From Heterodera schachtii (lineage: Eukaryota > Nematoda > Chromadorea > Rhabditida > Heteroderidae), in the NCBI GenBank assembly GCA_023374025.1, contig SIJG01000029.1:1398228-1462227 (forward strand): a DNA stretch of 64,000 nucleotides, given 5' to 3'. Made by a program: the position numbers and the translations under genes. Below the pieces are notes generated by a model that was given only the letters and a program-made list of their open reading frames with translations, had not been told where the DNA came from and ran no database searches. This document shows, piece by piece, positions 15,793-60,487 of the stretch. Within the stretch, counting starts at the first letter, position 1. Each line of letters starts with the position of its first letter.

Positions 15793-16063
15793 ATATAATA
15801 AAAATTGAAAAGTAAAAATATGTTAATGTAATAAGAAAAAGAAATCCAAGCAGTAGAAGAAATTTGTAATTTCTTTTTTCATTTACCTCTTTCTTGACAA
15901 AATCAATTTTATCGAATATTCCATTTCCAATTTCACTCACAAAATAAAAATTTTTTTTAATATGATATGAATTCATTTTGCCCCTAATTTTTTATTCATA
16001 AACCATATTTTATTTTATATATTACTTTTTATTTTAATTATTATTTAATATGTATTTTAAAAG

Positions 16064-21360: not shown

Positions 21361-22053
21361 ATTTTTATTTTACAGGAAATCAGTAGAAAGACGGGTTTTT
21401 ACATCAATAAAAATGCAAACTAATGAACAAAATTGCATTTTACGAGAAAAATAAATATTAAATTTATGTGAAGATGAAATTACGCCTAATATTCATTCCA
21501 ATTATATTTTTGATAATGGAAATTCATCAAATTAAAATGGAAAACATAAAATTAATATTTGGTGAAAAATGGGAAGAAGAAGAACAAAAAGAACGAAATG
21601 AGCGGAAAAAAGAGAAATAATTGGAAAGAAAAAATCAAAGAAAAAGGAAGAAAATATTCAACAAAAAAATGGAGTAAAATTGAAAAAAATAGCGAAAAAA
21701 TTTGGAAATAAATCGACTGAAAATTTATGAATGGATTAAAGAATTGGGGCTTAATCAAAAAATACAAAAAAAAGTTACAAATCAAAAAATGATGAAGAAA
21801 AATTAGAAATAGTTCATAAATTCATTGGAATGAAAAATGAAATAAGCAAAAAATAAAATATTCGCACAATGAATTGTAAGAAAATTTGGATTAAGCAGTA
21901 AAAGAATAACGAAGGAAGAAAAAATGGAAAAAATGAATATTTATTGGCAAACAAAAATAGAAAATCCAACAATGAGTGACAAAGAAATTGCAAAAACATT
22001 GAAAATTCATCGAGGTAGCATTTTAGGTGGAAGAAAAAACTTGGAATGATGAG
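21361..22053 (+). pseudogene. Secreted HTH-family copy, degenerate
   Basis: Begins with the shared 5' block (TTTTACAGGAAATCAGTAG at 21369), then a start codon at 21474 giving MKLRLIFIPIIFLIMEIHQI. A deletion removes the QKSFDEIF stretch, so IKL is followed directly by IFGEKWEEE, and a stop follows at about 21619. Later pieces in other frames recall HTH units (IYEWIKELGLNQK near 21725-21765 and MSDKEIAKTLKIHRGSIL near 21972-22025). The second unit is largely lost around 21850-21890. It is clearly non-functional. Confidence 0.75.
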
Positions 22054-22801: not shown

Positions 22802-23520
22802 ATCATTATAAATGATTTAAAGGTAGCAACAATAATTTTCATCAATGTTTTGAAGTTAAAAATTTAAATAAATATTTCCCTAATTCAAAATTAAATTTTA
22901 GTTGAATCGTCTAAAGAAGACTTTGAGTCGAATGCAATTAAAATAAAAAAGAAGGACTAATTTTGAAGACATAAAAAACAAAAACAGTTTAAATATGAAA
23001 AATTCCAATAAATTATTCTTCTTCATCTTCCGCTGTCTGGTCTTAATTATTCCATTGCAAATTACAATTTTTTTTTTTTTTTTTACAAATTTCGTCATAA
23101 TTTTGTTGTCAATCTTTTCATTTAATTTTTTTGCTCATATTAATTTTGACAATCCAATAATTTTTAAAATATTGAAGAAATGAATGGAAACAAATAAATA
23201 AAATTATGCCTAAAATAAACAATTTGAAATTAGCAAGAAAAAAAATAACGGAGAAAGAAAAAATGAAAAAGTATTGTCAAATAAAAAAGTAAATGCCAAA
23301 AATGAGTGAAAGCAAAATTAAAAAAGGTTGAAAATGGACCGAAATAGCATTTTAAAATAGAAGAAACAACATGAAATGCTGAAATAATTGAAATTTCGGA
23401 AAAAATAAACTTTTTAAAAGGCAATGGATAAGTATTTTATTATCCAATAAATTAATAATTTTTTCTTTTTTTAGTGCAAACATTCCATGTTCACATTTTC
23501 TTATCCATCGAATAAAATTA
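22802..23520. other. AT-rich stretch with HTH-family remnants
   Basis: Near 23225-23370 broken + frames recall the end of the HTH family (KKITEKEKMKKYCQIKK, then MPKMSESKI). Near 23089-23112 the phrase ACAAATTTCGTCATAATTTTG resembles the opposite strand of the second HTH unit. No intact gene. Confidence 0.4.
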
Positions 23521-24106: not shown

Positions 24107-26602
24107 TTAATATGGGAACAATTGATGTGATTCGACAGGCCCTTTTGTGCCTATTTTGGCTAGCACGGGAGGAAATACTTTGTCGAAATTCGGGTCCAAC
24201 ACATTTGAAATATAACTGAGCAATCGCCGATATTTGGCGCCCGCGTTGAAAAGGCATTCGATCAGTCCCATAAGTTCCACGTACCGTAGGGCCCCCGCTG
24301 CGGGACCGTAATTGGTCTAAACGAGAAAAAAACATTTGTCGTTTCGTAAATTCTGCCAGATGGGACTTTTTTCTAGTACTGGCGATACCGGTACTAACCG
24401 GTAAAGTAAAAATTAATGAAATTATCCAAGGAATTGAGGAAAATAGACAGGAATATTTTCAAAAACATATTATACTTATCCAATTTCATAACAATTATTT
24501 ATTTTTATAATTATTATGTTCATAAATTTAAAAAAAACTAAAAAATCTTTTCAATTTGCACCTGTACAACACTCATTAATAATGCAGCGTATTTCTCCGC
24601 TTCGCTGCGCAACAATTTTTGTGCCTGATCACTAAGCCCAGGCGACACTTAAATATTAAAACATTTAAACAGTGCGAGGTCATTTGAATGCGCACAGTTT
24701 ATTAATCTTTTAAGAAAACAATCTAATTAAATATTTTTCAATTATAGCCAAATTAAATTAAATTTTTATTTTACGCTCTTGCTAACCCATATGTGAGTAA
24801 ATTATTGCCCTAATTAGTACAAATTCTTCATTGCTCAATTTTAAACGGGCGAATGGCTGCACGGATTTGCAAAACAATTTGTCACCCATTCCCATGGCAC
24901 TAAAATTTCAAAAATATTCAATTAAATCAAATAAATTTAAATATTCATTCACACACATAGTATCTTGCTTATAAAATGAATTTGCGAAGATCTTAATTGG
25001 CATTACACCATCTGGTGAGCACCAAACGTCACAATTTTGTTGCACCGAATAGAAACTGTTGCACAACACAAACAATGGCACCGCAATATTGCTGCACAGG
25101 GCAACCTTTGCAATGGTAATTTTTATGTAAAAAATAGAATTAAATAAATAAATATCGTATTTCCTATAATATAACTCCCCCTGGAATAAAGACTCCCACC
25201 CCTTTTTTTTGGGGGGGGGGGGGAATAAAACCCCCGGAGGGCTATATTTCAATAAATATGGTATTCTAAATTTTTAAATTTTGCTCTACCTTGTCATTGT
25301 TGCCAAGCTGCTCAAAGAATGGAAAAGTTTTGCCAACTTCGAATACAAATAACAATTCCATGACCACGGGTGCTGGCCTTATAAAGAAGGGCCCAAACTG
25401 CCGTGCTTTTTCAAGAAATATTGCTGGAACTGCTTGTTTCGGTTTAGTCTTAATTCCAAGATTCTTCCATTTTTATGAATTCTCTCTTACCGAAAACTTG
25501 TTTACTAATTCGATCAAATTCTTTTTTCGTGAAAAAATTGACTCAAAGGTATCACATTGTGTGTAAAATAATTCTGGAATTGGTGTCTCTGAGTAGCGAA
25601 TTCGGCGCACTTTCTCCTCAATTTGCAGCAAATTTTTCATCACAATAACATTGATCAACTGCTTTAGTTCTGGTGCCTAAAATGCATAATTTGTTGTTGT
25701 TTTATCTGTGTTTTTTGTGGCGAAGTTGAAATTTGGTAAATGTGTGTAAATATTTTTTACCCAAAGGCTGTTTTTCCGAAAAAATTTGAACTAACAAGAC
25801 TTTTTTATAAAACATACACCTTAAAATAGAGTTTGGAATTTGGATTTTGCTCTTCTCCGTCTCCACTGACAACCGAGTTGAGGACGGCACTTTTTCCTGG
25901 GTGCTCTTTCATTCGTTCCACAAATGCCATTATTAGTTCGTTATTCAATTTTGTTGAAATCCTTAGCGGGTTCATTCCGACCGTTAAGCATTTGTACAGT
26001 CGGCATCGTTTGCATGATGCAAAATCTTATAAAACTTTTAATAAAAAAAATAAATATTTTCCAAAGGTCTTAAAAATGAGCAAATCTTTTAAATTTAGCT
26101 TTAAAAACGTTTACCCATAATTCAGTTTTTCAAAATATCATTAAAAAAGCATTTTTTTATTATTTTTTCATAATTATGATTTTTTAACCTTTTTCAGTTT
26201 CGCACTCTACGCCATTTTTGCATATGTATTCCTTCATCAACGAAATTGTGCGACGAAAAAAATGTCTGCAACCTGTAATTTTTAAAGAATCCAATTCGTG
26301 TGTTTGGATTTTTTAAAATTAAATTGATTTAACCCAGAGGACTCCCAAGTGTGTTTATTTCTAAGATTTGTGCTTATTTCAGCATTACGTGCTTATTTTG
26401 TGCTTTGCTTATTTTTAGATTTGAACATAAAAACAAAAAAATTTGAGTGACTGTTGTGACTTATCAATTTTTATTGAAGCGAATATTTGAAAAATTGGTT
26501 ACTTTCACAACATTTGATCCCATAATAAAAGTATTGACATGGACAATTGCACACCGCACATTTTGAGAAATAAAGTGACTTTTTGCCAGAGATAATCTTC
26601 AT
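24107..26602 (-). CDS. Nuclear hormone receptor, copy B (nine exons)
   Basis: Same nine-exon structure as copy A on the opposite strand. Exons in reading order: 26503-26602, 26189-26272, 25820-26025, 25491-25676, 25290-25463, 24957-25105, 24787-24899, 24562-24647, 24107-24316, joining to 435 codons without a stop. Finger 1 reads CAVCNCPCQYFYYGIKCCES and finger 2 CKNGVEC...CKRCRLYKC. The ligand-domain signature is FEVGKTFPFFEQLGNNDK and the last exon ends KGPVESHQLFPY. All splice junctions are GT/AG by eye, including the suspicious fourth intron of about 27 bases seen in copy A. Together with copy A it forms a head-on inverted duplication, so cross-mapping of reads or transcripts between them is likely. 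Exon 8 is the same sequence as in copy A. Confidence 0.85.
25150..25260. repeat. Homopolymer-rich insertion in intron 5 of receptor B
   Basis: TATAACTCCCCCTGG ... a run of about 13 G ... CCGGAGGGCTATATTTC. The same kind of element, expanded, is in intron 5 of copy C (about 29735-29905), and its left end (ATATAGCCTCCCGAATGG) remains in copy A at 17459. Confidence 0.6.
26335..26453. repeat. AATAAGCAC-type insertion in intron 1 of receptor B
   Basis: Inverted counterpart of the insertion in copy A (AGTGTGTTTATTTCTAAGAT, then GTGCTTATTTCAGC). It is shorter than in copy A and absent from copy C. Confidence 0.55.
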
Positions 26603-26894
26603 CTTTTAAAATTCATAAAACATATAAAATTATGCAAACATAATAAAAAATATTAAAATAAAATGAATATATAAAATAAATATGCTTTATGAATAAAAAT
26701 AAGGCAAAATGAATCCATATCCTATTAAAAAATTATTTTGTGAGTGAAATTGGAAATAGAATATGTCAGTCACTAAAATAGCCCTGTGAATATCAAATTG
26801 ATTTTATCGCGAAAGAGAGAAATGAAAAAAAGAAATTACTAATTTCTAATCATGGGATTTCTTTTTTTAAAATTACCCATATTTATACTGTTTA

Positions 26895-28147: not shown

Positions 28148-28218
28148 CTGGACCGGTGGGACTCGAACCCACGACCCGAGCAATCCGTGCCGTGCTCTAA
28201 CCGACTGAGCTACGGGCG
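28148..28218 (-). tRNA. tRNA-like sequence, probably a pseudogene
   Basis: On the - strand the D arm reads TAGCTCAGTCGGTTAGAGC and the T arm GTGGGTTCGAGTCCCAC with a perfect five-pair stem; both internal Pol III boxes (A and B) look intact. The acceptor stem (GCGCCCG against CGGTCCA) pairs only partly and the anticodon stem (CGGCA against CTCGG) does not pair well, so no reliable anticodon can be given. It sits inside the downstream part of the receptor C duplication unit and is absent from the equivalent positions of units A and B. It is most likely a tRNA pseudogene or the head of a tRNA-derived short element. Confidence 0.55.
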
Positions 28219-28506: not shown

Positions 28507-31422
28507 TTAATATGGGAACAATTGATGTGTCTCGACAGGACCTTTTGTGTATATTTTGGCCAGCACGGGAGGAAATACTTTGTCGAAATTCGGGTCCAAT
28601 ACATTTGAAATGTAAGTGTGCATTTGGCGATATTTGGCGCCCGTGTTGAAAAGGCATTCGATCAGTCCCATAAGTTCCACGTACCGTAGGGCCCCCGCTG
28701 CGGGACCGTAATTGGTCTAAATGGGAAGAATGATGATTGGTCGTTTCGTAAATTCTGCCAGCATGGGACTGTTTCTAGTAACGGCGATACCGGTACTAAC
28801 CGGTAATTATTCGCGCTTGTAAAAATGGGAATTTCAGAGAATGAAAATATCCAGGAAAATAGAATGGAATATTTTCAAAAACATATTATACTTCTCCAAT
28901 TTCATAAATAATTATTTCTTTTTATTATTATTAATTTTTGTAGATTTGGAGGAAAAGCCCCATTTTAGAGTACATCTATAAAAAAATAAATTTACACTAT
29001 TTTTAATAAATGCCAAAAAATCCTTAAATATTTTTAAAACCCAAAAATTGTTTCAAAAAGAACCATTTACCTGCAAAAAACTCATTAACAACGCAGAATA
29101 TTTCTCCGCTTCGAAGTACAACAATTTTTGTGCCTGATCACTGAGCCCTGGCGAAACTTAAAATGTAAAACATTTAAACAGCGGGAGGTCATTTGAATGC
29201 GCACAGTTTAGTAATCTTTTATTAAAACAATCAAATTAAAATTATTTTTTATTACATTCAATAGACCAATTCATTCTTTTTTACAATCGCTTCGACTCGA
29301 ATTAAATTCAAATTAAATTTAACTCATAAAATATATTGTTTTTTAGGCTTTTGCTGACCCATATGTGAGTAAATGATCGCCCGAATTAGTACAAATTCTT
29401 CATTGCTCAGTTTTAAACGGACGAATGGCTGGACGGCATTACAAAACAATTTTTCACCCATTCCCATGGCACTAAAATTTCAAATATATTTAATTAAATG
29501 AAAATAAATTTTAAATAATGATTCACAAACATTGAATCTTGCTTAAAAAATGAATCCTCGAAGATCTTAATTGGCATTACACCATCTGGTGTGCACAGAA
29601 CGTCACATTTTTGTTGCACCGAATAGAAACTGCTGCACAACACATACAATGGCATCGCAATATTACTACACAAGGCAATCTTTGCAATGGGAATTTTATA
29701 TAAAAAATTAAATAAATAATACAATATTTTCTAAAATATAGCCCCCCCCCCCCTGAAAGAAAGACCCACCCCCCCCCCCCTTTTTTTTGGGGGGGGGAGG
29801 GTTTCGAAGTAAAGCCCCCTAGAATTAGAGCCCCCTCAGAAATAAAGCCACCCTTTTGATGGCGGTTGAAAGATAAAGCCCTCGGGGGTTCTATTTCAAG
29901 GAACAAGGAAATTTTTGTTATTTTTTTTAATTTGCTTGTACCTTGTCATTATTGTCAAGCTGTTCAAAGAATGGAAAAGTTTTGCCAATTTCGAACACAC
30001 ATAACAAATCCATGACCACGGGTGCTGGCCTTACACAGAATGGTCCAAACTGACGTACTTTTTCAAGATATGTTGCTGGAACTGCTTGGACCGGTTTTGT
30101 CTTAATTCCAAGGATTCGTTCATTTTTTATGAATTCGCATTTACCGAAAATTTATTGGCCAATTCAAGTAAATTCAATTTTCGTGAAAGAATTGGCTCAA
30201 GTGTGTCACATTGTGTGTAAAATGATGCTGGGATTGGGGTCTTTGAGTAGCGAATTCGGCGAACTTTTTGCTCAATTTGCAGCAGATTTTTGATCACAAT
30301 CAAATTGATTCAACTCTTTTTGTTCCGGTGCCTAAAATGCATAATATTTTTCTTTTTTTTCTAGTGACATTGAATATTGGAATTCCAATTTTAACATTTG
30401 ATCGAAAAAAACCCTTTTTGGGAGTTTGGTATCTATTTTTTCAATTTAATGAAATCCCGCAGGTCGCCCGGGAAAATTAAGATATTTTTAACGAAACTTT
30501 TTGGTCAATTTGAAGCAAATTTTTCATGATCAACTTCTTTTGTTCCAGTGCCTAAAATGCAGAATTGTTGTTGTTTTATCTGTATTTTTTTTTGTAGTGA
30601 AGTTCCAAGTTAGTAAATGTGTACAAATTTTTTGTGCTGATTTTCCGGAAAAAAAATATTTTGAAAATTTTCAATAAAGCTCCTTAAAACAGAGTTTGAA
30701 ATTTGAAATTTGCCCTTCTCCGTCTCTTGTGACAACCGATTTGAGGACGGCACTTTTTTCTGGATGCTCTTTCATTAGTTCCACAAAGGCCATTATTTGT
30801 TCGCTACTGAATTTCGTTGAGCAAATTCCTTGCGGGTTTATTCCGACCATTAAGCATTTGTACAGTCGGCATCGCTTACATGATGCCAAATCTTACAATA
30901 AAAGTTTAATGAAAAATATTAGGTCTCTCGAGAATATTTTTTTTTAATATAATTCAAATATTTGATAATTTCTTTGAAAATTAGTTTTAGAAAATGCTTA
31001 CTCGTTTTATTTTAATAAAAGATCGTTAAAAATAAGGCAAATTTTTTTATTATTTCATTATTAAATTTAGGTATATTACGCTTTTTAACTTTTTTCATCT
31101 TCGCACTCTCCGCCATTTTTGCATTTGTATTCCTTCATAATCGAAATTGTGCGACGAAAAAAATGTCTGCAACCTGTAATTTTTAAGGCATATTATTTCC
31201 GTGGGGTTTTTCAATTAAATTTTAAAATTTAAATTAAATTGAAATTTTGCTTAAATAATTTTATTTTTTTTTCTAAATTTTTGTTCGTTTTTTCCTTTAT
31301 ATCATTCATTTAAATTTTATACTTGCGCAACACTTGACCCCATAATATTGATATTGACACTGACAATTGCACACCGCACATTTTGAGAGATAAAGGGACT
31401 TTTTGTCAGAGTTAGGCTTCAT
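28507..31422 (-). pseudogene. Nuclear hormone receptor, copy C (decaying)
   Basis: Nine exons equivalent to copies A and B are recognisable (start at 31422, zinc fingers CAVCNCQCQYQYYGVKCCAS and CKNGGEC...CKRCRLYKC, ligand-domain signature FEIGKTFPFFEQLDNNDK, end KGPVETHQLFPY at 28507). Two lesions break it. The donor after exon 3 reads AAG/GAGC instead of AAG/GTG, so the frame runs into TGA at once. Exon 4 (about 30145-30330) has one extra A (GTTGAATC against GTTGATC in copy A), which shifts the frame. Exon 4 is also partly duplicated (30500-30556). Other exons still look conserved, so the decay is recent, or the lesions are assembly errors. Confidence 0.8.
29735..29905. repeat. AATAAAGCCCCC-iterated element in intron 5 of receptor C
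   Basis: Begins TATAGCC followed by a long C run, repeats variants of GAAATAAAGCCCCC, and ends GGGGGTTCTATTTCAA. It contains C and G homopolymers of 9-14. A related element is at the same place in copy B and, as a stub, in copy A, so it predates the three-way duplication. Confidence 0.65.
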
Positions 31423-31962
31423 CTTTTAAAATTCTTAAAGCACATAAAATTACGCAACCTATTAAAAATAATTAAATAAAATAGTAAAAAAAGAGAATAT
31501 GTAAAATAAAATTTGCTTTATGAAATAAAAAGGCAAAAATAATCCATATCACTAAAAAATTATTATTATTTTATGAGTTAGAAATGGTAAATGGAAATAT
31601 TTGTTAAAGTAAGCCCATGTCGATGTGAATGTCAAATTGATTTTATCGCGAAAGATGTAAATGGAAAAAAAGAAATTACAAATTTTACTGATGGGATTTC
31701 TTTTTTCTCTTAATTAACATATTTATACCTATTTTGTCTATTTAATCAGCCCCCGGCAAATGAGTCATTCTCGTCCTTCCAGACTTCCTTCCATCATTTT
31801 TTTTCCTTCATTCATGTTTCGCCGCTCAGGGAAGCTCATCCCTTGCTCGACATTTATCCGATTTTAACAGTTTCATGGCACAGCGAGAAGTGCGCAGGCA
31901 TAGAAGGCAAAAAATAGTTTTGTAATAAAAGAATAATAGAAAGCCAAATTTTCAACAAAAAA
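31423..31962. other. Upstream flank of receptor C and shared GC island
   Basis: 31423-31700 matches the upstream flank of copies A and B. 31745-31925 is GC-richer and shares an inverted match with 27190-27250 (CATTCTCGTCCTTCCAGACT). No gene is supported. Confidence 0.45.
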
Positions 31963-32040
31963 AAAGAGAAAATCAAAAAATGGCATTAAAATTCATAATT
32001 CAAATTACATAAAAACATTTTAATTTAATCACTCAACAAA

Positions 32041-32728
32041 TCACTGTTCTTCTTCTGATATTTCTTCTCCGAATTGTTTCTCCCATCTGAAAATGGTTGA
32101 TCGATCAATTTTCAATGTTTTTGAAATTTCCTTGTCACTAATTGCCGGATTTTCTCTTTTTATTTCCCAATATTTTTTCATTTTTTCCATTTTTTCTTTC
32201 TCCGTTATTCTTTTATTGCAAATGCCAAATTGTTTAATCCATCTCGCAATTGTTCTATAACTTATTCCAATTTTCTTACAAATTTCGACATAATTTTGTT
32301 TCCATTCTTTTGTTGAATACTTTCTTCCTTTTTGTTTTAATTCATTTTTCATTTCCATGAATTTTTGAACAATTTCAATTTTTTCTTCATCAGTTTTTGG
32401 TTTGTTTTTATAGAGGCCAAATTCTTTAATCCATTTTTGAATATAACTTCGGTTTGACCCCAACTTTTTCGCTATTTTCTGTTCGATTTTATGTCTTTCT
32501 TTTTTTGAATATTTTCTTCCTTTTTGTTTAATTTTCTCTTTTATTTTATTATATTTAGCAATTATTTCTCTTTTTTTCTGCTCATTCCGTTCTTTTTTCT
32601 TCCCATTTTTCTCCAAATATTTCATCAAATGATTTTTGCGGTAATTTTTTATTTTCAATTTTTATTTGATGAATTTCGGCGATCAAAAATATAATTGGAA
32701 TTAATAATAGGCAGAATTTCATTTTCAT
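32041..32728 (-). pseudogene. Secreted HTH-family gene with single-base frameshift
   Basis: Read from the ATG at 32728 it matches the intact gene at 37627-38313 nearly identically (MKMKFCLLLIPIIFLIAEIH at the start; RSTIFRWEKQFGEEISEEEQ at the end) but is 688 instead of 687 bases. The extra base is an A in the A run after GGGAAG (near 32601), in the stretch for KWEEKERNEQ. It throws the signal peptide out of frame with the three HTH units. With so little other divergence this is either a very recent inactivation or a homopolymer sequencing error. If the extra base is not real, both arms encode functional twins. Confidence 0.8.
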
Positions 32729-32783
32729 TACAAATATTCAAAAATGTTAATAATTGCAATTTTGATTTATTATTTTTCATTTT

Positions 32784-32826
32784 TGTTGGTGTCAAAATCG
32801 TCTTTCTACTGATTTCCTGTAAAATA
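32784..32826 (-). promoter_or_regulatory. Shared 5' block of the HTH family
   Basis: Same as the block at 37531-37571, in mirror orientation: TTTTACAGGAAATCAGTAG, then AAAGACGATTTTGACACC. Confidence 0.6.
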
Positions 32827-32915
32827 AAAATCCTACTTGTAAATTAATAATAATTTTGATTATGAGTAATTTTTCTACTGATTATGAAAAAATAAAATTA
32901 TTAAAATTCATAAAT

Positions 32916-33269
32916 TTAATTACAGAAAAACACTTTAAATTGATTTAAAATGCTATTTCGACTAATTATAAGGGTTTTTGCAATTTCCTTGTCACTAATT
33001 GCCGGATTTTCTCTTTTTATTTCCCAATATTTTTTCATTTTTTCTATTTTTTCTTTTCCATTATTTTCCTCCGTTATTCTACAGCGAATTCCAAATTGTT
33101 TCTTCCATTTATGAATTGTAATTTGGCTTCCTCCGATTTTCTTGCAAACTTCTACATAATTTTGTTGCCATTCTTTTCTTGAATATTTTCTTTTATGCTT
33201 ATATTCATTTTTAATTTCCATGAATTTTTGAACAATTCAATTTAAAATGAATAATTGGCACAATTTCAT
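32916..33269 (-). pseudogene. HTH-family copy with internal deletion
   Basis: Starts MKLCQLFILN at 33269, then a stop, then IVQKFMEIKNEYKHK, so the first HTH unit and the FDEIFGEKW region are deleted. Units 2 and 3 follow (VCKKIGGSQITIHKWKKQFG; SDKEIAKTLIISRNSIL), after which the end is replaced by NQFKVFFCN. It lies directly upstream of the 31963-32893 arm in the same orientation. Not functional. Confidence 0.7.
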
Positions 33270-34883: not shown

Positions 34884-34989
34884 ATGTATACCCAATATTT
34901 ATTGGACGGACTAAAAATTTTCTGACATGGAATTTTTACACTTAAAAAATGAAAAAGCCATTAATTTATTATTAGACAAAACAAATCTA

Positions 34990-35290
34990 TACCTCAGTTT
35001 TTGATTTGTAGCTTTTCTGTATTTTTTGATTAAGCCCCAATTCTTTAATCCATTTTGAATACAAGTTTGTTTGTCCCTAATTTTTTCGCTATTTTTGACA
35101 TTAATTTATGCCCATTTTTTATTTGAGTATTTTCTTCCTTTTTGCTTAATTTTTTCTTTTATTTTATAATATTTTTGAATAATTTCTCTTTTTTTTCTGT
35201 TCAATTCGTAGTTTTTTCTTCTTTTTCCTCCCATTTTTTAGTTTTTTCTTCTTTTTCCTCCCATTTTTCTCCAAATATTTCATCAAAGTT
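34990..35290 (-). pseudogene. HTH-family N-terminal fragment, degenerate
   Basis: On the - strand it carries remains of FDEIFGEKWEE, the Lys-rich stretch and the first HTH unit (KWIKELGL...) in broken frames. The phrase CTTTTTCCTCCCATTTTT occurs twice, about 34 bases apart, a small internal duplication. There is no signal peptide and no C-terminal half. Confidence 0.6.
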
Positions 35291-36296: not shown

Positions 36297-36755
36297 GGTG
36301 GAAAAAAGTCTTGGTACAAAGTGTTTTTTGTCGTAACTTTGTCAAATGATGGTCAATCTCAACGATTTTGATACCAAAAAATTATTTAATCGAAATTCAG
36401 TTGACCTATTCCGGCATTTTTTGGAAAAATAAAAGTTAAACCGGTTTTTAAACCGATTTAAAAAGTATGTCATTTTGGATATCAAAAAAAAAATTTTTTG
36501 GGAAAATGGGAAAAATATATGTGATTCTAGTCGAAATTCTCTACAATAACCGCGTCCAAACCGGTTCAGTAGGAGCCGAGATTTAAATTTTGAAAATCGA
36601 AAAATGGTTCAAAACGGTATAAAAGCGCAAGGGCCATTTTTCGATTTTCAAAAATATTTTATCTCGGCTCAACCAATTAGGACGTAGTTATCGGCATTAT
36701 TTTTTTGAATCAAAATCGTTGAGATTGACACAAAACTCAAAAGTTCACTAGGGTA
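36297..36755. repeat. Fold-back element
   Basis: TCTCAACGATTTTGATACCA near 36357 is mirrored by AATCAAAATCGTTGAGATTG near 36708, and CGATTTTCAAAAT/ATTTTGAAAATCGA pair inside. The left end TACACTGGTGGAAAAAAGT looks like a Tc1/mariner-type end at a TA; the right end is less clear. Confidence 0.6.
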
Positions 36756-37038: not shown

Positions 37039-37285
37039 AGGATTTTTTAGAGGAAATCAGTAGATATGCGATTTTTACACCAATCAAATGAAAATCATCA
37101 AAAAATACATTTGCTTAAATTTATTTGGAAAACTTATGAAGAAAATGAAATTACGCTTATTATTAATTCCAATTGTTTTCATGGTAATGGAAATTCATCA
37201 AATTAAAACGGAAAATAAAAAATTATCTCAAAAATTAATTGATGAAATATTTGAAGAAAAATGGGAAGAAAAAGAAGAAAAATAA
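37039..37285 (+). pseudogene. Secreted HTH-family copy truncated after the signal peptide
   Basis: The upstream block is present but altered (AGAGGAAATCAGTAGATATG at 37050). From the ATG at 37136: MKKMKLRLLLIPIVFMVMEI, then LSQKLIDEIFEEKWEEKEEK and a stop at 37285. No HTH units follow in any frame over the next 150 bases. A 49-residue secreted acidic/basic peptide is possible, but it is most simply a truncated copy. Confidence 0.65.
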
Positions 37286-37519
37286 AATGAGAAGAAAAAA
37301 AAAGTTAAATTATTGAAAAATATATTAAAATAAAAGAGAAAGTAAAGGAAAAGGGAAAGACACAAAATCATTTTTTCCAAAATTGAGTAATTTATTCATA
37401 TCCCTCAAAAAATAAATGAAAACATTAGAATTTTTAAATTTACACATTTATTTATAATTTTATTATTCCATAATCAGTAGAAAAATTACTCATAATCAAA
37501 ATTATTATTAATTTACAAG

Positions 37520-37577
37520 TAGGATTTTTATTTTACAGGAAATCAGTAGAAAGACGATTTTGACACCAACAAAAATG
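37520..37577 (+). promoter_or_regulatory. Shared 5' block of the HTH family (best example)
   Basis: TAGGATTTTTATTTTACAGG, then AAATCAGTAGAAAGACG and ATTTTGACACC. A second shared patch, CCATAATCAGTAGAAAAA, lies 70 bases upstream at about 37463. Both occur, in the same order, before the copies at 13440(-), 32728(-), 58008(-) and 60991(+). The ATCAGTAGAAA word is thus present twice per promoter. Confidence 0.65.
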
Positions 37578-37626
37578 AAAAATAATAAATCAAAATTAAA
37601 ATTATTAACATTTTTGAATATTTGTA

Positions 37627-38313
37627 ATGAAAATGAAATTCTGCCTATTATTAATTCCAATTATATTTTTGATCGCCGAAATTCATCAAATTAAAACGGA
37701 AAATAAAAAATTACCGCAAAAATCATTTGATGAAATATTTGGAGAAAAATGGGAAGAAAAAGAACGGAATGAGCAGAAAAAAAGAGAAATAATTGCTAAA
37801 TATAATAAAATAAAAGAGAAAATTAAACAAAAAGGAAGAAAATATTCAAAAAAAGAAAGACATAAAATCGAACAGAAAATAGCGAAAAAGTTGGGGTCAA
37901 ACCGAAGTTATATTCAAAAATGGATTAAAGAATTTGGCCTCTATAAAAACAAACCAAAAACTGATGAAGAAAAAATTGAAATTGTTCAAAAATTCATGGA
38001 AATGAAAAATGAATTAAAACAAAAAGGAAGAAAGTATTCAACAAAAGAATGGAAGCAAAATTATGTCGAAATTTGTAAGAAAATTGGAATAAGTTATAGA
38101 ACAATTGCGAGATGGATTAAACAATTTGGCATTTGCAATAAAAGAATAACGGAGAAAGAAAAAATGGAAAAAATGAAAAAATATTGGGAAATAAAAAGAG
38201 AAAATCCGGCAATTAGTGACAAGGAAATTTCAAAAACATTGAAAATTGATCGATCAACCATTTTCAGATGGGAGAAACAATTCGGAGAAGAAATATCAGA
38301 AGAAGAACAGTGA
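37627..38313 (+). CDS. Secreted protein with three helix-turn-helix units (intact)
   Basis: 228 residues in one exon. Residues 1-23 form a signal peptide-like start (basic MKMK, then hydrophobic FCLLLIPIIFLIAEI). A Lys/Glu-rich linker with FDEIFGEKWEE (34-44) follows, then three repeated units: about 52-105 ending KIAKKLGSNRSYIQKWIKEF, 112-168 ending ICKKIGISYRTIARWIKQFG, and 174-220 ending ISKTLKIDRSTIFRWEKQFG. Each looks like the homeodomain-like HTH of transposases (A-x-x-L/I-G/K-x-x-R-x-T/Y-I-x-R/K-W). The units are strongly basic, as expected for nucleic-acid binding. A signal peptide on a DNA-binding-like protein is odd. In a plant-parasitic nematode it would suggest a secreted effector that acts in host nuclei, but that is inference. 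No acid triad of a transposase is present. A second in-frame ATG lies two codons downstream. Confidence 0.75.
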   Translation: MKMKFCLLLIPIIFLIAEIHQIKTENKKLPQKSFDEIFGEKWEEKERNEQKKREIIAKYNKIKEKIKQKGRKYSKKERHKIEQKIAKKLGSNRSYIQKWIKEFGLYKNKPKTDEEKIEIVQKFMEMKNELKQKGRKYSTKEWKQNYVEICKKIGISYRTIARWIKQFGICNKRITEKEKMEKMKKYWEIKRENPAISDKEISKTLKIDRSTIFRWEKQFGEEISEEEQ

Positions 38314-38406
38314 TTTGTTGAGTGATTAAATTAAAATGTTTTTATGTAATTTGAATTATGAATTTTAATGCCATTTTTTGATTTTCTCTTTTTTGTTAAT
38401 TTTTAG

Positions 38407-45538: not shown

Positions 45539-48500
45539 GGTTCATTAAAATGTCTCTCCAGCGCAATTTTCAAAAAAAAAAAAATTGTTTTGTAAGGGTT
45601 CGCCCGCACCCCACCAGCGGTAGCGACAAAACCGCATGGAAAACTGCAAAGATATAAGAAATTTTGAAAAAATTTTTCAGGGTTTGGCCAACGAGGCATG
45701 GACTTCGATGATGTCCATCCAGCAAAGTGCACTGACCGATTTGGCTAAGCCATCTGCAGCAGTGGCACAAAAAGTTGCGGCACAGGAACATAAAGCATTT
45801 GACAGTGTATTCCGGCCAAAGCGTAACAATTTGCCAGCACAATGTGGTGAGTATGGGAAAACTTTTTGAACAAATTTTAAGCGGAATACAAATAAGAAAG
45901 AATGGATATTTAATTTAAATTGTAAAAAAAAAAAATTATTTTATATTTATTAATTTTTTAAAATTATAATTTTTGGTTTGTTTGTAATTTTGAAATTTTA
46001 ATTATTGTAAATATTAAATTGTCTTAAATTAAATTTATGTTTAGTTTGCAGCAATTTTGATCAATTTAAATATTTATTAATGTAATTAAAATACATTATC
46101 CAAAACAATTTTAAATTTCTCTTATTTTTAAGTATGTTTTATTTAAAAATATGTAAGTTTTCGGTAATTTTAATCATTTTAATAAATTAACATTTCTTTT
46201 TTTTCAGAATGTGCCACTGAACATGCGCAGAATTGCCCGCCAGGCCCCCAGGGACCTACAGGAAAAGAGGGAATGCCAGGCTGTAAGCAAAATTATTATT
46301 TTACAGCAATATTCAAAAAAAAAAGAGTCAAAAATTACATTAAAAATGCCCAATTTTAAATCAAAAATCGGTTGCAATAAATAAGAGAATTTGGCCTGTC
46401 TGCAAAATTTATACGGCATTTGCCATAAAAATTCGTTTTAGGCGTCAAATACTCAAAATTTTCCAGAATCCGGTTATGCCCATGCAGTCACATCAATAGA
46501 TTGAAACTAAAAATATAGAAATTATTTGGTTATTTATCATTAAGTTTGCCAAAAAAATTTTCAGTGAACGGCGAGCCGGGCCTTCCCGGGCCACCCGGCA
46601 TTTCCGGCGTTCAATTTGGCGAGCAGATGTTCAGTCGGCCATGCATTCAATGCCGGCAAGGGCCGCCCGGCAAAATGGGTCGCCGTGGCGACGTCGGACA
46701 GAGCGGACCGCTTGGCCCACCTGGCGTGCCAGGCGCGCCAGGACGCATGGGCAACCCGGGCAAGGAGGGCAAAGGTGGGCGAGCAAGGTAATTTTGCTAA
46801 TTATTATCATCAAATAAATGAAGCACAAAAAAAATTCATTTGAGTAATTAATAGGCTATTAAACAGAGGTTTAATTTAAAAAATGTGTTTATTGGGTAAT
46901 TAAATTACTTTTTTAGTAGAAACGAAAATGTGTTCTTAAAAGTAATGCGATATTTAACTTTCAATAAATGAACAATTAAATGGCTCACGTACCATTTAGC
47001 CGGCTTTAAAATTTTGCAAAATATAACACGATAATTTTGTGAAACTTTTACAAATTAATTATATTATTCTTAAATTACAAATATTTTCTCAGGCAAAAAC
47101 GGGCTCAATGGAGCGCCAGGCATTCCAGGAGCGCAGGGTGAGTCCGGCTCATCCGGTCTGCCTGGACCGCCTGGGACAAAGGGTGAGCCGGGCGAGACCG
47201 GCACGTCGGGTGAGCCTGGGCTGGAAGGTGCCAACGGAGCACCGGGCGGAGATGGCGAGCCGGGCGAGGCTGGGCCAGCCGGGCTGCCCGGCATTCCCGG
47301 GCCCAAAGGACCGCCGGGAACGGTGAGAGCATTTTGCCATGAAATTTAAAAAAAAATTTTAAATTTAAGACTGGCACAAGTGGCGAGCCTGGCGTAGACG
47401 CTGCCTACTGTCCATGCCCACGAAAAACTCAATATGTAGAAGTGCCCGGTGATGAACGCCAGGCTCCTAGCCGTAATGGTGGCGGTGCTAAGCCGGCGGC
47501 TCAACCGCCCAAATTGCCGACCGCTAGGCCAGAAGGCGAGGGTTGCTTTGCTGGAAAATTAATTTCAAAATTTTCATTGTAGCACCGCCTAAAGAGGAGC
47601 CCGAGCAACCAACGACAGCCGAGCAAACATACAGTACACTGGCTGAGGGTACCAATGCTGGCACATCAGCAACACCATCAGCAGCAACTAAAGAAACTTC
47701 CGCGCCAGCTGAAGCAGTAACAGAACAACCTGCAGAAACTCCAAAACCCGCTGAACCAGGGACAGAACAACCTGCAGAAACACCCAAATCATCTGAGGAA
47801 CATACAGCTGAAACATCATCGCCAGAAGCTGAAGCAGGCACAGAACAACCTGCAAAAACACCCAAATCATCTGAGGAACATACATGCTGAAACATCATCG
47901 CCAGAAGCTGAAGCAGGCACAGAACAGCCTGTCGGAACACCCAAATCATCCGAAGAAGTTCCATTCCAAACGCAAAAACCTACGGAGGAAGGCTCCGAGA
48001 CGTACAAGCCGACTGAAGCAAGCACTGCTGAACAACAATCCACTGAAAGTCCAACACCCGCTGCAGCAGGTGCAGGACAACCGGCCCAAAATCCAAAAGC
48101 CGCTGAAGCAGGGACAGAACAACCTGCAGAAACTGAAAAACCCGCTGAAGCAGGGACAGAACAACCTGCAGAAAGTGAAAAACCCGCTGAAGCAGGGACA
48201 GAACAACCTGCAGAAACTGAAAAACCCGCTGAAGCAGGGACAGAACAACCTGCTGAAACTGAAAAACCCGTTGAAGCAGTAACAGAACAACCCGCTGAAG
48301 AATCGCCAACATCAGTGCCAGCGGAGGAATCAACAGCGACAACTGTTGAAGTGAGCAAAGCGGTCAGTGAGGCGGGTCATGAAGTGGCGGAAGCAGGCAA
48401 AGCGATAGGCGAAGCGGCAAAGGCAGTTGGCAACGCGGCGGTTGCAAAGGTTGTGTGTGCCTGCCTAATTATCTCATTAGGCCCTACCAAAATCAATTAA

Positions 48501-49204: not shown

Positions 49205-50009
49205 TTAGCCCCTAATTAGGCCATTTGGTTGCCCATAATCATTAAGAGATTTTTATCATTTAATTTAAAATTGAATAATAAAATATTTATCAAAGTATTT
49301 GTTCGTTGTTTTATTATCTCGTTACTAATTCGATCTTTTTAATAAGAAATAACTTTAATAGCTTCAAAAACTTATGCCTTTTGAAAAGCGATTTTTTTTA
49401 TATTTTACGAAATTTTAGTAAGACGTAGGCGTCTTGTGAAAAATTAAAATTTTTGTTGCTGTTGATTTCATAAAAAATTTCTAAAATCGAGACAATCAGA
49501 AAATAAAAGACCTCTTTTGAAACCCACTGCTGTTAGCGCATCCCTCAGCAATTCTGTTTTCCTGTCCACAGATTTTTGTATAAAAATCGTCATTTTTTAA
49601 CAAAAATATAAATAATTTTTATTTTATAAATTTCATAATATTCCCGACAAGCCTTACAATTATTATTAGTTTTATAAATTTGATCGAAAAGGGACAAAAT
49701 ACTTCTTTGTCTGCAAAATTACAAAAAAAAAAATAAATAAATATTTGTTTCCTTGCAATATAACTCTCATAGAGATACATTCCGAACCGATTTCGAACCA
49801 AAAGTCGGAATTCCGATGAGCAAAAAAATTGAGATCCGATATCAACAAAAATTTAAGAGGTTGGGCTTCTAAACCTAAACGTGTCAGCAGAAGTCGTCTG
49901 ATACCCTTAAAGTAATTCGGAAGCTTAAATTACATGCCTAGAAATTCAAAAACCCAATTTTCCATTGCTCCTCATGGCTTCACAAATATTTATTTATTTT
50001 TTATAGAAA
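49205..50009. other. Intergenic stretch
   Basis: No gene supported. At 49790-49850 the words TTCCGAACCGATTTCGAACC and AAGTCGGAATTCCGATGAG give a small CCGA-word patch. The ATG of the next gene is preceded by TTTTTTATAG/AAA, a possible spliced-leader acceptor. Confidence 0.4.
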
Positions 50010-51709
50010 ATGATTAGTTGCAAAGCTATGAACATTTTGCAACTTTTTTTATTTGTTTCCTTTATATTCAAATATTTTTCTTCTGCTGAAAAATGGACCA
50101 AGGACATTACGGAACAAAATGTCAAAATATTTGCAAAATTTATTGATGAAATCTTCGAAATGAAAAGGGAGGAATTTGAAATTCCCCTCGGTGATTATAA
50201 CGAAGTAAATGATAAAGAATATGAGAAAAATTATTTACAACAACAGCGAATGGTTTTCTACCTAACATTTGTAGAATTTGCGGTGCAAATTGCCCATTTT
50301 CAAATGTTGAATGGTGGTGATGGCATCGATGGATTTTGTGCAAATTTCAAACACAATGCCATAACAACTAGTTATCGGTCGACTTTCAAAATAACAAACA
50401 GCTGGAAAAATATTTGGAAGGAGAATATAAAAAATTGTTTTGCAACGAGGAAAAAGAATTGCTTCTCGTGGTTGACCAAATTTTGTTGTTGACTTTTTCA
50501 TTGGCACTGCGTTTAAAATTTAGTGCGATGTAATTTTTTTTTAATTTTTTTTTTCTAAATTTGGTGTTTTAGTTTTGCTTACTATCATCCTGTGCCTAGC
50601 CTTGACTTCCTTAACCATTCCAACGATGAAGGAAGTGAAAACTGGCAAATTCAAACACTTTTGTCAGCGTATAAACAATTGTCAGACACAAAAGGCATCA
50701 CAAAACTAGGGTATTAATTAAAGCACTGAAAGTTAACAATTAATAATCCTTTTCATTTTAGCATCTTTCCTTTTGAACTATCAAAAATTTCGGAAGATAA
50801 AACTTTTGCTTTTTGGATGGTCAATTTTAGTGACCAGCAGAAGAGACCAATTAAGGATTTTGAACAATACATTGGTATCTAAATTTTGTCAACATGCATT
50901 TTTCCATTATAGTTAATTTTAGAAAATTTCATTTTCATTGTGTACATTTCAAAATTTTCATTGACAAGCTCCGATGCAACCAAAATTATTGAAGCAATTA
51001 TTGACAATGAAGGCAAAGAAAACGGCCAAGAAAATGAAGCAAAATTACCAGAAATATACAGATTAGTAAAATTGCCAGAAGTGTACAGATTTGTGAGAAG
51101 TTATTTTCTCAACAAAATGAACAATGAAAAGCCATCAGAGCATTCCGAAATTCCACCAATTAGCTGTATACTGTACAATTTGGGCTTTCAATTAAATTAT
51201 TTATTGTCGGAGACGACACAGAAATTCGGTGAATTCTTTGCAAAGCACAAAAGTCGGTGTGGAGGAGAGTTGCACAAGGGAATTACTGAAGTAGTTGACG
51301 GCACAAAATTGGATGTTGCAGTATATGGTTTGGGATACAGGTAAATTCATGCAAAGCTCAATTTAAATTTAGCCAATCATTTGATCGGGCTATGTTTGAA
51401 CAAATTTATTTAAAAAAATATAATAATTTTATGATTAATCCGTCGTCATTTGGTCGTCAAAATTCCAAAAGGAGCCGCCGTAGTTAAAATATTTACAATT
51501 TTACGTACTTTTATTTTAGCATTGAACAAATCGATTTGGAATTTTTAAAAGAGCCAATTAAACGGTACGCAAGAGCAATTGGATTTAAAGGCACGGAAAA
51601 AACTGAACAGCAAACTAAAAAGCCAACCGAAAAGCCAACCGAAAAGCCAACCGAAAAGCCAACCGAAAAGCCGACAAAGGGAAAAGGCAAACAAAAAATG
51701 GGCCAATGA
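50010..51709 (+). CDS. Secreted protein of unknown function with KPTE-repeat tail
   Basis: Proposed exons: 50010-50282, 50372-50529, 50573-50710, 50762-50874, 50923-51340, 51520-51709, joining to 429 codons. The signal peptide is MNILQLFLFVSFIFKYFSSA (second in-frame Met; the first is six codons earlier). The body is mostly helical and charged with several Cys (LFCNEEKELLLVVDQIL; SLDFLNHSNDEGSENWQIQT; CILYNLGFQLNYLLSETTQK; KSRCGGELHKGITEVVDGTK). The end has five KPTE units and a basic KGKGKQKMGQ. No membrane anchor, so probably exported. The first intron (50283-50371, donor GTGCAAAT) is inferred because the frame changes there; if it is not an intron, exon 1 carries a one-base indel. The protein resembles the many orphan secreted proteins of plant-parasitic nematodes, but I know no named family. 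Confidence 0.65.
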
Positions 51710-53392: not shown

Positions 53393-53500
53393 TTGGAATT
53401 AATAATAGATGGAATTAGGTACATTTTATTCACAAATTAAAAAACAATTTTTATTGATGTCAAAATCGCATTTCTACTGATTTCCTGTAAAATACAATAA
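53393..53500 (-). pseudogene. HTH-family 5' end only, cut by a repeat
   Basis: The - strand shows the shared block (TTTTACAGGAAATCAGTAG, then AAATGCGATTTTGACATC) at about 53448-53494, and the start of a signal peptide-like frame (ATTCCATCTATTATTAATTC) that stops abruptly at the CCCCGAC repeat. The first codons have changed (MYLIPSI in place of MKFRLL-type). Nothing of the HTH units remains beside it. Confidence 0.6.
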
Positions 53501-53835
53501 AAAAATCTTCTTAATTGAAAATTAAAAATATTTTTGCTTATGTATAATTTTTCTATGCTTATGGAATAATAAAATTGTAAAATATGTGAAAATCTAAAAT
53601 TATTATTAAAAGCATTATGGTTTAATATTCTTGTGGTTTTTCCACCAAAATATACTGGTTTAAAAAAAAAAAAAAAAGGATTTTTTCTGCGAAATTATTG
53701 CATTTTATGCGTGTGTTGATTCTCAAAACAGGAAATTTTGAGAATATGAAGGATTTTCTCAGTTTTTGATAGAAAAAAAAAATTATTGTTTACTTTCTTA
53801 AAATTTTTTTAAAAAAATTTTAAGAAAATAACATA
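53501..53835. other. AT-rich stretch
   Basis: Upstream flank of the broken HTH copy, then A/T-rich sequence without a supported feature. Confidence 0.4.
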
Positions 53836-55055: not shown

Positions 55056-55553
55056 TCAAACAACTTTAATGTGCAGCTGGAGTTGAGAGCGATCGCAACA
55101 CGTCCGCGAAACGCGGCGTTTTTTCCATTTTCTTTTTTGCTTATATTCATTGGATATTTCAATAAAATTCTGTACAATTTCAAATTTTTCTTCATCATTT
55201 TTTGATTTGAAAGATCTATTTATTTTTTGATTCGGCCCTAATTCTTTAATCCATTTGTAAATTTTCTTTCGATTTGTCCCCAATTTTTTTGCTATTTTTA
55301 TTTCAATTTTATTACATTCTTTTTTTGAATATTTTCTTCCTTTTTGCTTTATTTTTTCTTTTATTTTGTTGAATTTTTCAATAATTTCTCTTTTTTTGAG
55401 TTCATTTCGTTTTGCTTCTTCTTTTTCTTCCCATTTTTCTCCAAATATTTCTTCAAATGTTTTTTGTTCTTGCAAATTTTTATCTTCTGATAAAATTTGG
55501 TGAATTTCCATTATCATAAATTTAATTGGAATTATTAATATGCGGAATTTCAT
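55056..55553 (-). pseudogene. Secreted HTH-family copy with replaced C-terminus
   Basis: From the ATG at 55553: MKFRILIIPIKFMIMEIHQI, then FEEIFGEKWEEKEEAKRNEL, then unit 1 (KIAKKLGTNRKKIYKWIKEL) and the start of unit 2 (DEEKFEIVQNFIEISNEYKQ). After KRKW the sequence switches to GC-rich DNA encoding RRVSRTCCDRSQLQLHIKVV and a stop at 55056. The remaining two thirds of unit 2 and all of unit 3 are missing. The 5' block is present, diverged, at about 55630-55672. It could still be translated as a secreted one-HTH protein of 165 residues. Confidence 0.65.
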
Positions 55554-55699
55554 TTTCTTCACAAATTTTCTAAAGTAAAGTTAATATTTTTTCTTGTAAA
55601 ATATAATTTTTGATTATTATTTTGGTTTTTATTGATGTAAAAATTACCTTTCAACCGATTTCCTCTAAAATAAAAAATTCTACTTATTTTAATTAAAAT

Positions 55700-57327: not shown

Positions 57328-58008
57328 TTAATTTTCTGTCCCAAATTTGATTTTCCATCTCCAAACTATCGTCTTAGGAATATTCAATAATTTTGCAATT
57401 TCTTTGTCACTGTTTTTTGGATTTTTATTTTTTATTTCCCAATACAATTTAATTTTCTCCCTTTTTTCTTCCTTAGTAATTCTTTTAATACTAATACCGA
57501 ATTGTTTCTTCCATCTGCAAATTGTTCCACGGTTTACGCAAATTTTCTTGCAAATTTCGGCATAATTTTGGTTCCATTCTTTGGTTGAATATTTTCTGTT
57601 TTGTTTATATTCATTTGTCATTGCAATAAATTTTTGAATAATTTCTAATTTTTCTTCATCAGTTTTGCCTTTGTAATATTTACGTTTTTGAAGACCAAAT
57701 TCTTTAATCCATTTTTGAATATAATTACTATTTGTTCCCAATTTTTTCGCTATTTTTCCATCAATTTTATTCCATTCTTTTGCTGAGTATTTTCTTCCTT
57801 TTTCCTTTATTTTCTCTTTTATTTTTAAATATTTTCCAATTATTTCTCTTTTTTTCTGCTCATTTCGTTGTTTTTCTCCTCTTTCTTCCGATTTTTCTCC
57901 AAATATTTCATCAAATGTTTTTTGTTGTAATTTTTTATTTTCCATTTTAATTTGATGAGTTTTCATCATCAAAAATATAATTGGGATAAATAAGAGGCGG
58001 AATTTCAT
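57328..58008 (-). CDS. Secreted protein with three helix-turn-helix units (intact)
   Basis: 226 residues from the ATG at 58008 to the stop at 57328; an upstream GTG AAG AAA is not needed. Signal peptide-like MKFRLLFIPIIFLMMKTHQI, then FDEIFGEKSEE. Unit 1 ends KIAKKLGTNSNYIQKWIKEF, unit 2 ICKKICVNRGTICRWKKQFG, and unit 3 IAKLLNIPKTIVWRWKIKFG. It shares the layout, the spacing and the GRKYS-x-KEW linker with the gene at 37627-38313 but is clearly diverged in sequence. Two intact but divergent members beside many broken ones suggest retention of function in a fast-duplicating family. Charged residues dominate (Lys, Glu), and Cys occurs only in unit 2. The shared 5' block is at 58095-58133. Confidence 0.75.
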   Translation of the reverse strand: MKFRLLFIPIIFLMMKTHQIKMENKKLQQKTFDEIFGEKSEERGEKQRNEQKKREIIGKYLKIKEKIKEKGRKYSAKEWNKIDGKIAKKLGTNSNYIQKWIKEFGLQKRKYYKGKTDEEKLEIIQKFIAMTNEYKQNRKYSTKEWNQNYAEICKKICVNRGTICRWKKQFGISIKRITKEEKREKIKLYWEIKNKNPKNSDKEIAKLLNIPKTIVWRWKIKFGTEN

Positions 58009-59264: not shown

Positions 59265-59606
59265 TTAAATCGTGAAATTGAACAGAAAAAACCCTAATTC
59301 TTTAATCCATTTATAAATTTTAAGACGATTTGTTCCAAACTTTTTCCATATTTTCGCATTAATTTTATCCCATTCTTTTCTTTGGTATTTTATTCCTTTT
59401 TCCTTTATTTTTTCTTTTATTTTATAATATTTGCCAATTATAATTCTTTTTTTCTGCTCATTTTGTTGTTTTTCATCTTTTTCTTCCCATTTTTCTCCAA
59501 ATATTTCATCAAATGATTTTTGAGATAATTTTTTATTTTCCATTTTAATTTGATTGATTTCAATTATGAAAAATAAAATTGAAATGAATATTAGGCGGAA
59601 TTTCAT
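59265..59606 (-). pseudogene. Secreted HTH-family copy truncated after unit 1
   Basis: From the ATG at 59606: MKFRLIFISILFFIIEINQI, then FDEIFGEKWEEKDEKQQNEQ, then unit 1 (KIWKKFGTNRLKIYKWIKEL) followed by GFFLFNFTI and a stop at 59265. Units 2 and 3 are lost. Its 5' region is also broken: the usual flank is found only to about 59690 and resumes at about 60000, with about 300 unrelated bases between, and the ATCAGTAGAAA core is missing. Confidence 0.65.
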
Positions 59607-59689
59607 TTTCTTCACAAATTAAAAAGTAAATTTAATATTTAGATTTTATTGTAAAAATACTAATTATAATTTTTATTTATTATTTTGCA

Positions 59690-60000: not shown

Positions 60001-60487
60001 TAAAATAAAAATCCTACTTAATTGAGAATAAATAATGATTTTAATTATTTAACATTTTTCTACTGAAATTTAATAATAAAATTTTAAATATTTGTGAAAA
60101 TTTAAAATTACAATTTTATTTTGTTTTTTGTTTAATTTTTATGTAATTTGCAAAAAAACAACCTAATAAATAAGGCAAAAAGAAGAAGAAAAATAACAAC
60201 AAATTTTAAATTTTGATATTATTAAACACAAAATAATGAGTTTATTAGACACCGTATGTTTAGTAACACCAAAAAATTCTTTAAAAAAGACAAATTGAAT
60301 AAAAATGAATTTTAAAGTTATTCAAAAAGAAAATTAAATAAAATTATTATTAGAAGCAAAAAATTAAACATAATCTACAATTTTTTATGAGAATTCTTCA
60401 AAGCGGAAGTGTTTTTTGCACTTTTTGATGATGCCAAAGAAAATTTAATTTCATATAATCTTATAAGTTTAGATAATTAGTTAATTG

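Follow-up and report, generated by a model that had tools for sequence, protein, structure and literature searches.

In KRAB zinc-finger proteins and in TAL effectors (TALEs), the latter being exported proteins, DNA is recognised by tandem units that share a constant scaffold and differ in their contact residues. Among nematodes, the F-box A2 genes of Caenorhabditis form a multicopy family with a captured Tc1/mariner helix-turn-helix (HTH) domain, in which an F-box is joined to the HTH; purifying selection on this family is stated in a section title of the article describing it, and its available text makes no mention of a signal peptide (PMC12062965). The SPRYSEC and GLAND effectors of cyst nematodes are presented, in the available text of another article, as large secreted families with lineage-specific expansion, 20 SPRYSEC variants being counted in Heterodera schachtii (PMC10946958). 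A further set of 3,094 H. schachtii genes is similar to ADI82807.1 and, as given in the main text of Siddique et al. (PMC9582021), 2,235 (72%) of these genes lie in segmental duplications, which are enriched in the terms 'DNA integration' and 'viral DNA genome packing', and 860 of them are among 2,881 male-specific genes. The main text of Cotton et al. (PMC4054857) gives 474 ADI82807.1-like genes for Globodera pallida, some of them highly expressed only in males, and reports for the few of them that were assayed, picked by their expression in early parasitism, a digestive-system signal and no gland signal by in situ hybridisation. We found no description of HTH units, a leader or recognition residues for the ADI82807.1-like family in open-licence main texts.

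Here, we analysed a stretch of 64,000 nucleotides of H. schachtii (assembly GCA_023374025.1, contig SIJG01000029.1, positions 1,398,228 to 1,462,227), hereafter called the window, to which all coordinates below refer unless a contig is named. A single open frame on the plus strand (37627–38313) encodes an intact protein of 228 aa, with a leader, an EIFGEKW linker and three HTH units recognised by tblastn, Pfam and AlphaFold2. The signal-peptide-like leader, marked by a hydrophobic peak, takes up residues 1–21 (37627–37689) and the linker lies at 37732–37752; the limits of the units, set by us on the basis of Pfam and AlphaFold2 and, for unit 3, also of the structural search, are residues 47–106 (37765–37944), 107–171 (37945–38139) and 172–222 (38140–38292). 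For comparison between copies, 42 open copies were used, namely the two intact window genes and 40 that were fetched from about 150 listed genomic rows and chosen to have no internal stops and to be spread over contigs. The EIFGE of the acidic-aromatic linker (E36 I37 F38 G39 E40) was invariant in all 42.

A signal peptide-like start, HTH units and the absence of a catalytic domain had been claimed for these proteins by a sequence-only reading of the window, and all three are upheld by the present analysis. A hydrophobic N-terminus was found in 42/42 open copies genome-wide, which had been retrieved by similarity to a query containing that N-terminus, and by simple rules 36/42 have a (-3,-1) site after the leader. 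Pfam HTH_23 matched three stretches in each of the two intact window proteins above the gathering score, and AlphaFold2 placed three three-helix units in the model (pLDDT 83, pTM 0.43), so that a tri-helical HTH fold is predicted for the units by both methods. No catalytic transposase domain was listed by Pfam at E ≤ 1 in the two intact window proteins; across the 42 members at E ≤ 5e-4, Pfam returned only HTH-type and HTH-resembling families, HTH_Tnp_1 in 32 and Terminase_5 in 9, and no catalytic RNase H-like domain. The body of the protein is strongly basic, with a net charge of +24 to +40. A sequence search of the PDB gave nothing convincing (best E 0.21), and a structural search against the PDB gave no match at E ≤ 0.001 among the families listed. 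The weak structural matches were mostly HTH domains, with SETMAR, Mos1, CENP-B and Pax6 among the better ones, and it is to the Tc1/mariner, CENP-B and Pax domains that the tandem tri-helical arrangement can be likened. Because HTH_Tnp_1 is matched by 32/42 members, and SETMAR and Mos1 are among the weak structural matches, the units may possibly have arisen from a transposase domain that was captured. Like the Caenorhabditis F-box A2 genes, the family is present in many copies in nematodes and carries an HTH of transposase type; it differs from them in its three HTH units, its leader and the lack of an F-box match.

The window proved to be crowded with relatives of this gene. When the two intact proteins were compared with it by tblastn, 12 family loci were found between 12,774 and 61,672, that is, in 49 kb, where at least ten loci of the same layout had been claimed in 50 kb; the exact EIFGEKW-coding pattern occurred seven times in the window and never in 100 dinucleotide shuffles. 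As the sequence-only reading had it, two of the 12 loci are open throughout, the second being a minus-strand member at 57328–58008 (tblastn span to 58017) that has 226 aa counted from its ATG, the list of open reading frames starting it 9 bases earlier at a GTG, and is 70% identical to the 37627–38313 protein. From the frames in which their tblastn segments align, the members at 12774–13443 (minus strand) and 32044–32731 (minus strand) each change frame once, and the broken member at 60982–61672 (plus strand) does so more than once. The second of these lies inside an inverted duplicate (31957–32919, minus strand) of 37434–38397, the two being 98.3% identical over 965 aligned bases. The remaining loci are, by their tblastn frames, truncated or more broken: a broken member at 21468–22045 (plus strand), a fragment at 23167–23325 (plus strand), a C-terminal fragment with units 2–3 at 32919–33236 (minus strand), a broken member with the linker and unit 1 region at 34962–35290 (minus strand), a truncated member with leader and linker at 37136–37369 (plus strand), and truncated members in which unit 1 is still open at 55110–55562 and 59286–59615 (both minus strand). 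Misassembly of AT-rich runs may account for some of the frame shifts. Solo copies of the 5' region of the family, with no open reading frame, were seen at 53447–53599 and 60001–60130.

Other features of the window were also recorded. An Ala/Glu/Pro-rich repetitive open reading frame with TEQPAE-type repeats (47721–48500, plus strand) had no Pfam match at E ≤ 0.01 and is overlapped by minus-strand open frames at 47524–47979 and 47867–48376, and a 229-aa frame at 63274–63963 (minus strand), with no Pfam match over the cut-off, gives the impression that it may be part of a retroelement. A repeat at 30001–31728 has partial copies at 15812–17356 and 25349–26888 (70–84% identity). An Rfam tRNA match at 28153–28215 (minus strand; 33.7 bits, gathering score 29) was not reported by ARAGORN, and a perfect 20-nt inverted repeat (36588–36607 and 36634–36653), flanked by a second pair within 36573–36670, is possibly a small foldback element.

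The scale of the family is far larger genome-wide. In the H. schachtii genome, EIFGEKW is encoded exactly at 699 sites and F[DE]EIFG at 1009, neither pattern occurring in reversed form, and a protein search of the genome gave 3910 first-look candidates, 150 of which were scored; the listed copies cluster in islands. Further H. schachtii subfamilies have the linker FDEIFGQRW or FDEIFGNEW and longer spacers rich in acidic residues and glutamine, and four of their loci (L055, L056, L058 and L060) carry an insert of 51–63 nt with intron-like ends at the joint of units 2 and 3; one alignment of the family contains probable intron translation in L058 and L060. Searches for proteins elsewhere, which extended the family beyond H. 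schachtii, gave 314 matches, of which the 120 listed were all from Globodera; further searches gave 3 and 1 Globodera proteins, and there was also one 146-aa protein on a 1251-base contig with the source label lgn. Among these best 120 of 314, the hydrophobic N-terminus was present in 102, the linker in 103 and both in 93, so that the Globodera proteins share the layout; leader and linker are conserved between the two genera, with EIFGE in the H. schachtii subfamily to which the 42 copies belong (subfamily A) and FDEIFGEGWW in Globodera. Many of the 120 (P0001–P0120) are automatically named 'Transposase' in UniRef, although 102/120 have the hydrophobic leader and the domains listed for them by Pfam are of HTH type. 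A tree was built from 34 rows (15/42 subfamily-A copies, 9/10 other H. schachtii loci and 10/120 Globodera proteins); in it, each of the three subfamilies of H. schachtii, and likewise Globodera, was set apart by a well-supported branch, and 17/31 inner branches were unresolved, as were most relations within groups. This tree fits separate expansions of one layout.

A family with so many copies, on both strands and mostly broken, could be a transposable repeat, either dead or non-autonomous, with a transposase remnant as its open reading frame. The HTH_Tnp_1 matches and the copy-sized inverted duplicate of 965 bases speak for this, as does the state of 21 EIFGEKW sites that had not been selected for openness (one edge-cut site dropped and 37 sites inside chosen open reading frames set aside): 3/21 were fully open and 11/21 had an open N-terminus, leaving 18/21 not fully open. 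However, the median NG86 dN/dS among the 42 open copies was 0.39 (861 pairs), against 0.88–0.90 in neutral simulations with AT-biased mutation, which is incompatible with the dead repeat family that had been held out as the alternative should dN/dS among intact copies be neutral. By region, dN/dS was 0.63 in the leader, 0.29 in the linker and 0.29, 0.39 and 0.46 in units 1–3 (42 open copies), and in a further calculation the acidic-aromatic linker was the lowest region, at 0.24–0.34. Homology between copies decays at the ends of the gene, blast alignments reaching, at the median, to 3 bases upstream of the ATG at one end and to 15 bases short of the last base of the stop codon at the other; they run further between the closest copies (95th percentiles, 192 bases upstream and 20 downstream). 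Mean identity was 0.79 in the open reading frame, 0.62 upstream and 0.52 downstream, with 0.57 for upstream against shuffled sequence (250/861 pairs). The AT-rich flanks showed no recognisable terminal inverted repeats and no recognisable target-site duplication, and neither the lack of a listed catalytic domain nor the preservation of leader and linker between genera suits a transposable repeat. Selection, flank decay and the layout common to both genera lead us to reject a dead repeat, and we regard the transposable-element reading as a whole as very improbable. The copies belong to a genuine gene family of cyst nematodes that is hyper-expanded and whose scaffold and linker are under purifying selection, and the overall picture is one of birth and death with many broken copies.

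Sequence upstream of the genes carries a further shared feature. TCAGTAG occurs 84–249 bases before the ATG in 19/42 copies and downstream in 1/42, with an expectation of 0.12, and the looser AGTAGRA was found upstream in 21/42, further upstream in 3 and downstream in 2. The 37627–38313 member has three AGTAGRA elements (37476–37551, plus strand), 151, 109 and 82 bases before its ATG, and AGTAGRA is also present upstream of several broken window copies. Part of this signal is shared descent of close relatives. Genome-wide, ATCAGTAGAAW has 486 occurrences against 90 for the reversed pattern, some of them in unrelated tandem arrays; arrays with ATCAGTAGAAT every 72–89 or 78–85 bases, at C12:563323-564174 and C4:3916195-3916602, share the core of the family's upstream motif. 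A retrocopy origin of the copies, also considered, is disfavoured because the upstream motif and the upstream alignment are common to the copies.

Within the conserved body, variation was concentrated at the predicted recognition helices, the codons of which lie at 37903–37920 (unit 1, residues 93–98), 38095–38112 (unit 2, residues 157–162) and 38251–38268 (unit 3, residues 209–214) on the plus strand of the intact member. Their exposed residues, which we presume from comparison with Hin- and homeodomain-type HTHs, were taken per unit as positions -6, -5, -4, -2 and -1 from the invariant tryptophan (residues 99, 163 and 215); a 12-codon set without position -1 was fixed after the variability had been seen, and the 15-codon set after the consensus line had been seen. 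Mean entropy in the 42 copies was 2.19 bits at recognition positions compared to 0.95 in the body (printed P of 0.0000 from 20,000 random draws), and the recognition positions were hypervariable in all three units, including the exposed positions of unit 1. Every one of the 42 copies had a distinct 15-residue recognition set, and pairs differed at a median of 11/15 recognition positions, relative to a mean of 4.4 and a maximum of 7 for random sets of 15 other body columns. The Globodera proteins showed the same pattern, with offset -5 the most variable in units 1, 2 and 3 and entropies of 1.14, 1.54 and 2.05 bits at recognition positions compared to 0.47, 0.64 and 0.59 elsewhere (20, 106 and 91 units, respectively).

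The rates of change in these codons were high. Against whole-gene dS, pairwise dN/dS in the 12 recognition codons was 1.50 over the full set of pairs and 1.84 in the 91 closest ones, compared to 0.31–0.43 in the remaining body. Local rates in the same codons were nearly equal (mean pN 0.485, pS 0.489; ratio about 1), and the tree-based estimate for 15 codons was 1.20 (P = 0.076), which is not clearly above 1, with 0.43 for the rest of the body. Per unit, the tree-based values were 0.83, 1.87 (P = 0.005) and 1.13, unit 2 being the highest. When the comb of recognition positions was shifted over 52 placements, one scored higher (1.30, shift -23) and one tied (1.20, shift -18), and thus surface exposure may explain part of the recognition-codon dN/dS; among the eight leading placements, shift 0 had the most amino-acid changes (391, followed by 335 at shift -1, which overlaps with it). 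It is therefore clear that the recognition positions are strongly relaxed or diversified; the tests for positive selection are equivocal, its case being weakened by the high local pS in the same codons.

The composition of the variable positions bears on whether the helices still recognise DNA. Acidic residues made up 20/630 (3.2%) of recognition residues compared to 203/1370 (14.8%) at other variable body positions (P = 5e-17, kinship ignored) and 5.3% in random translation of flanks (P = 0.015, related copies treated as independent), whereas K/R reached 34%, relative to 17% and 15.5%, respectively. In an alternative reading, the proteins would be exported basic HTH-fold proteins in which specific recognition has lapsed, serving as scaffold, antimicrobial or general nucleic-acid binders with a surface that drifts unconstrained. 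Such drift would agree with a tree-based dN/dS near 1, with local pN equal to local pS and with the high positive charge of the body, but not with the depletion of D/E, which goes slightly below even the flank translation, or with the excess of K/R, and we consider it rather unlikely. The composition is compatible with retained DNA binding, and the aligned copies suggest a constant scaffold with a predicted contact face that is variable yet DNA-friendly.

We infer secretion, DNA binding and site of action, and our preferred reading, to which we give a probability of about 0.5, is that the family forms a repertoire of secreted proteins that bind DNA with differing specificities. The protein would enter the secretory pathway and lose its leader, it would bind DNA through three recognition helices in tandem, and copies would differ in the DNA that they bind, since change in the contact residues is free or favoured and the scaffold stays fixed. 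The acidic-aromatic linker could be a putative processing, partner-binding or activation motif. Compared to KRAB zinc-finger proteins and TALEs, the family has a different fold and belongs to different organisms, and it has no known code, its DNA binding being a prediction. Rival readings overlap with this one, and the probabilities attached to them need not add to one.

One rival keeps the DNA-binding part of the preferred reading but places the action elsewhere. Here, the proteins would be plant-directed nuclear effectors, injected through the stylet to regulate host genes in plant nuclei as TALEs do, with the linker, which would resemble an activation domain, in that role. An export-type leader, a basic HTH body and diversified recognition positions are in keeping with this, and so is a linker that is the region most constrained by dN/dS (0.24–0.34) and is conserved into Globodera. 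On the other hand, the DOG box ATGCCA was not enriched near the genes, being found upstream of 9/42 copies and downstream of 10/42 (500 bp, either strand). In the available texts, this box is reported for 77% of 101 dorsal-gland effectors of G. rostochiensis (PMC4901422) and, in H. schachtii, for 82% of GLAND5 genes, rarely for SPRYSECs and never for CLEs (PMC10946958); gland expression would be compatible with its absence, since some effector families lack it. In addition, the words HTH, helix-turn-helix and transposase are absent from the main text of the article on the H. schachtii effectorome (PMC11309470). Relative to the SPRYSEC and GLAND effectors, the triple-HTH family has other domains, no DOG-box enrichment and a larger copy number.

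The published family of ADI82807.1-like genes offers a second line of evidence on the site of action. To judge from the available texts (PMC9582021, PMC4054857), that family, like the present one, has thousands of genes in H. schachtii and hundreds in Globodera, clustered in segmental duplications, and is highly divergent with a suspected link to transposition. The order of copy number, though only the order, agrees (1009 F[DE]EIFG sites, 3910 candidates, 314 protein hits). The two were compared by size, clustering and taxonomic range, and no H. avenae protein was among the listed matches of the protein searches, including the best 120 of 314. Because size, clustering and taxonomic range fit and no other such family was seen, the triple-HTH family is probably the ADI82807.1-like family. 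A second large family might instead correspond to the published 3,094 genes; among uninterrupted genes, the one further secreted-looking open reading frame of the window that was tested for this (50007–50492, plus strand, searched as 50010–50489; 161 aa, no Pfam match at E ≤ 0.01) was rejected, having 7 genome matches including itself and 31 first-look candidates compared to 3910 for the triple-HTH family.

Given this probable identity, a male or non-gland site is likelier than injection into the plant. Male-biased secretion outside the glands, for example seminal or in the gut, is tentatively the likeliest site, at somewhat less than an even chance, and action after injection into the plant is the second likeliest and unlikely. 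The partial male specificity of what is probably the same family (PMC9582021, available text) also weighs against the plant-nuclear effectors described above, which we likewise hold to be unlikely. Of the secreted-effector interpretation put forward by the sequence-only reading, the secretion-type N-terminus, the three-HTH body and the existence of a real gene family stand, and delivery through the oesophageal glands is not supported, in view of the DOG-box counts, of this partial male specificity and of the negative gland result for the few G. pallida genes assayed. Male expression could also be seen as the mark of a selfish family of gamete killers or drivers, kept by action in the male germline, which would explain the islands, the turnover and the broken copies; clustering, the high broken fraction and the male-specific share of the probable same family are in its favour. 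An export leader combined with diversified DNA-contact residues is not predicted by such a reading, nor is there evidence of drive or toxicity, and we consider it extremely improbable.

In its boldest form, the preferred reading of a secreted DNA-binding repertoire would amount to a combinatorial set of hundreds of secreted proteins resembling transcription factors, each reading DNA of its own through three recognition helices and diversified by selection on contact residues, as an animal counterpart to TAL effectors or, if male-borne, as a seminal cocktail; we regard this form as a long shot. That the terms 'DNA integration' and 'viral DNA genome packing' are enriched in segmental duplications (PMC9582021, available text) may partly reflect the family's own HTH units, as inferred from automatic labels, because many of its listed Globodera members carry 'Transposase' labels in UniRef and H. 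schachtii members match HTH_Tnp_1 (32/42) and Terminase_5 (9/42). If the family is the ADI82807.1-like family, 3,094 H. schachtii genes by the published count would be explained as secretion-type triple-HTH proteins, and the prediction would be that paralogues differ in DNA specificity.
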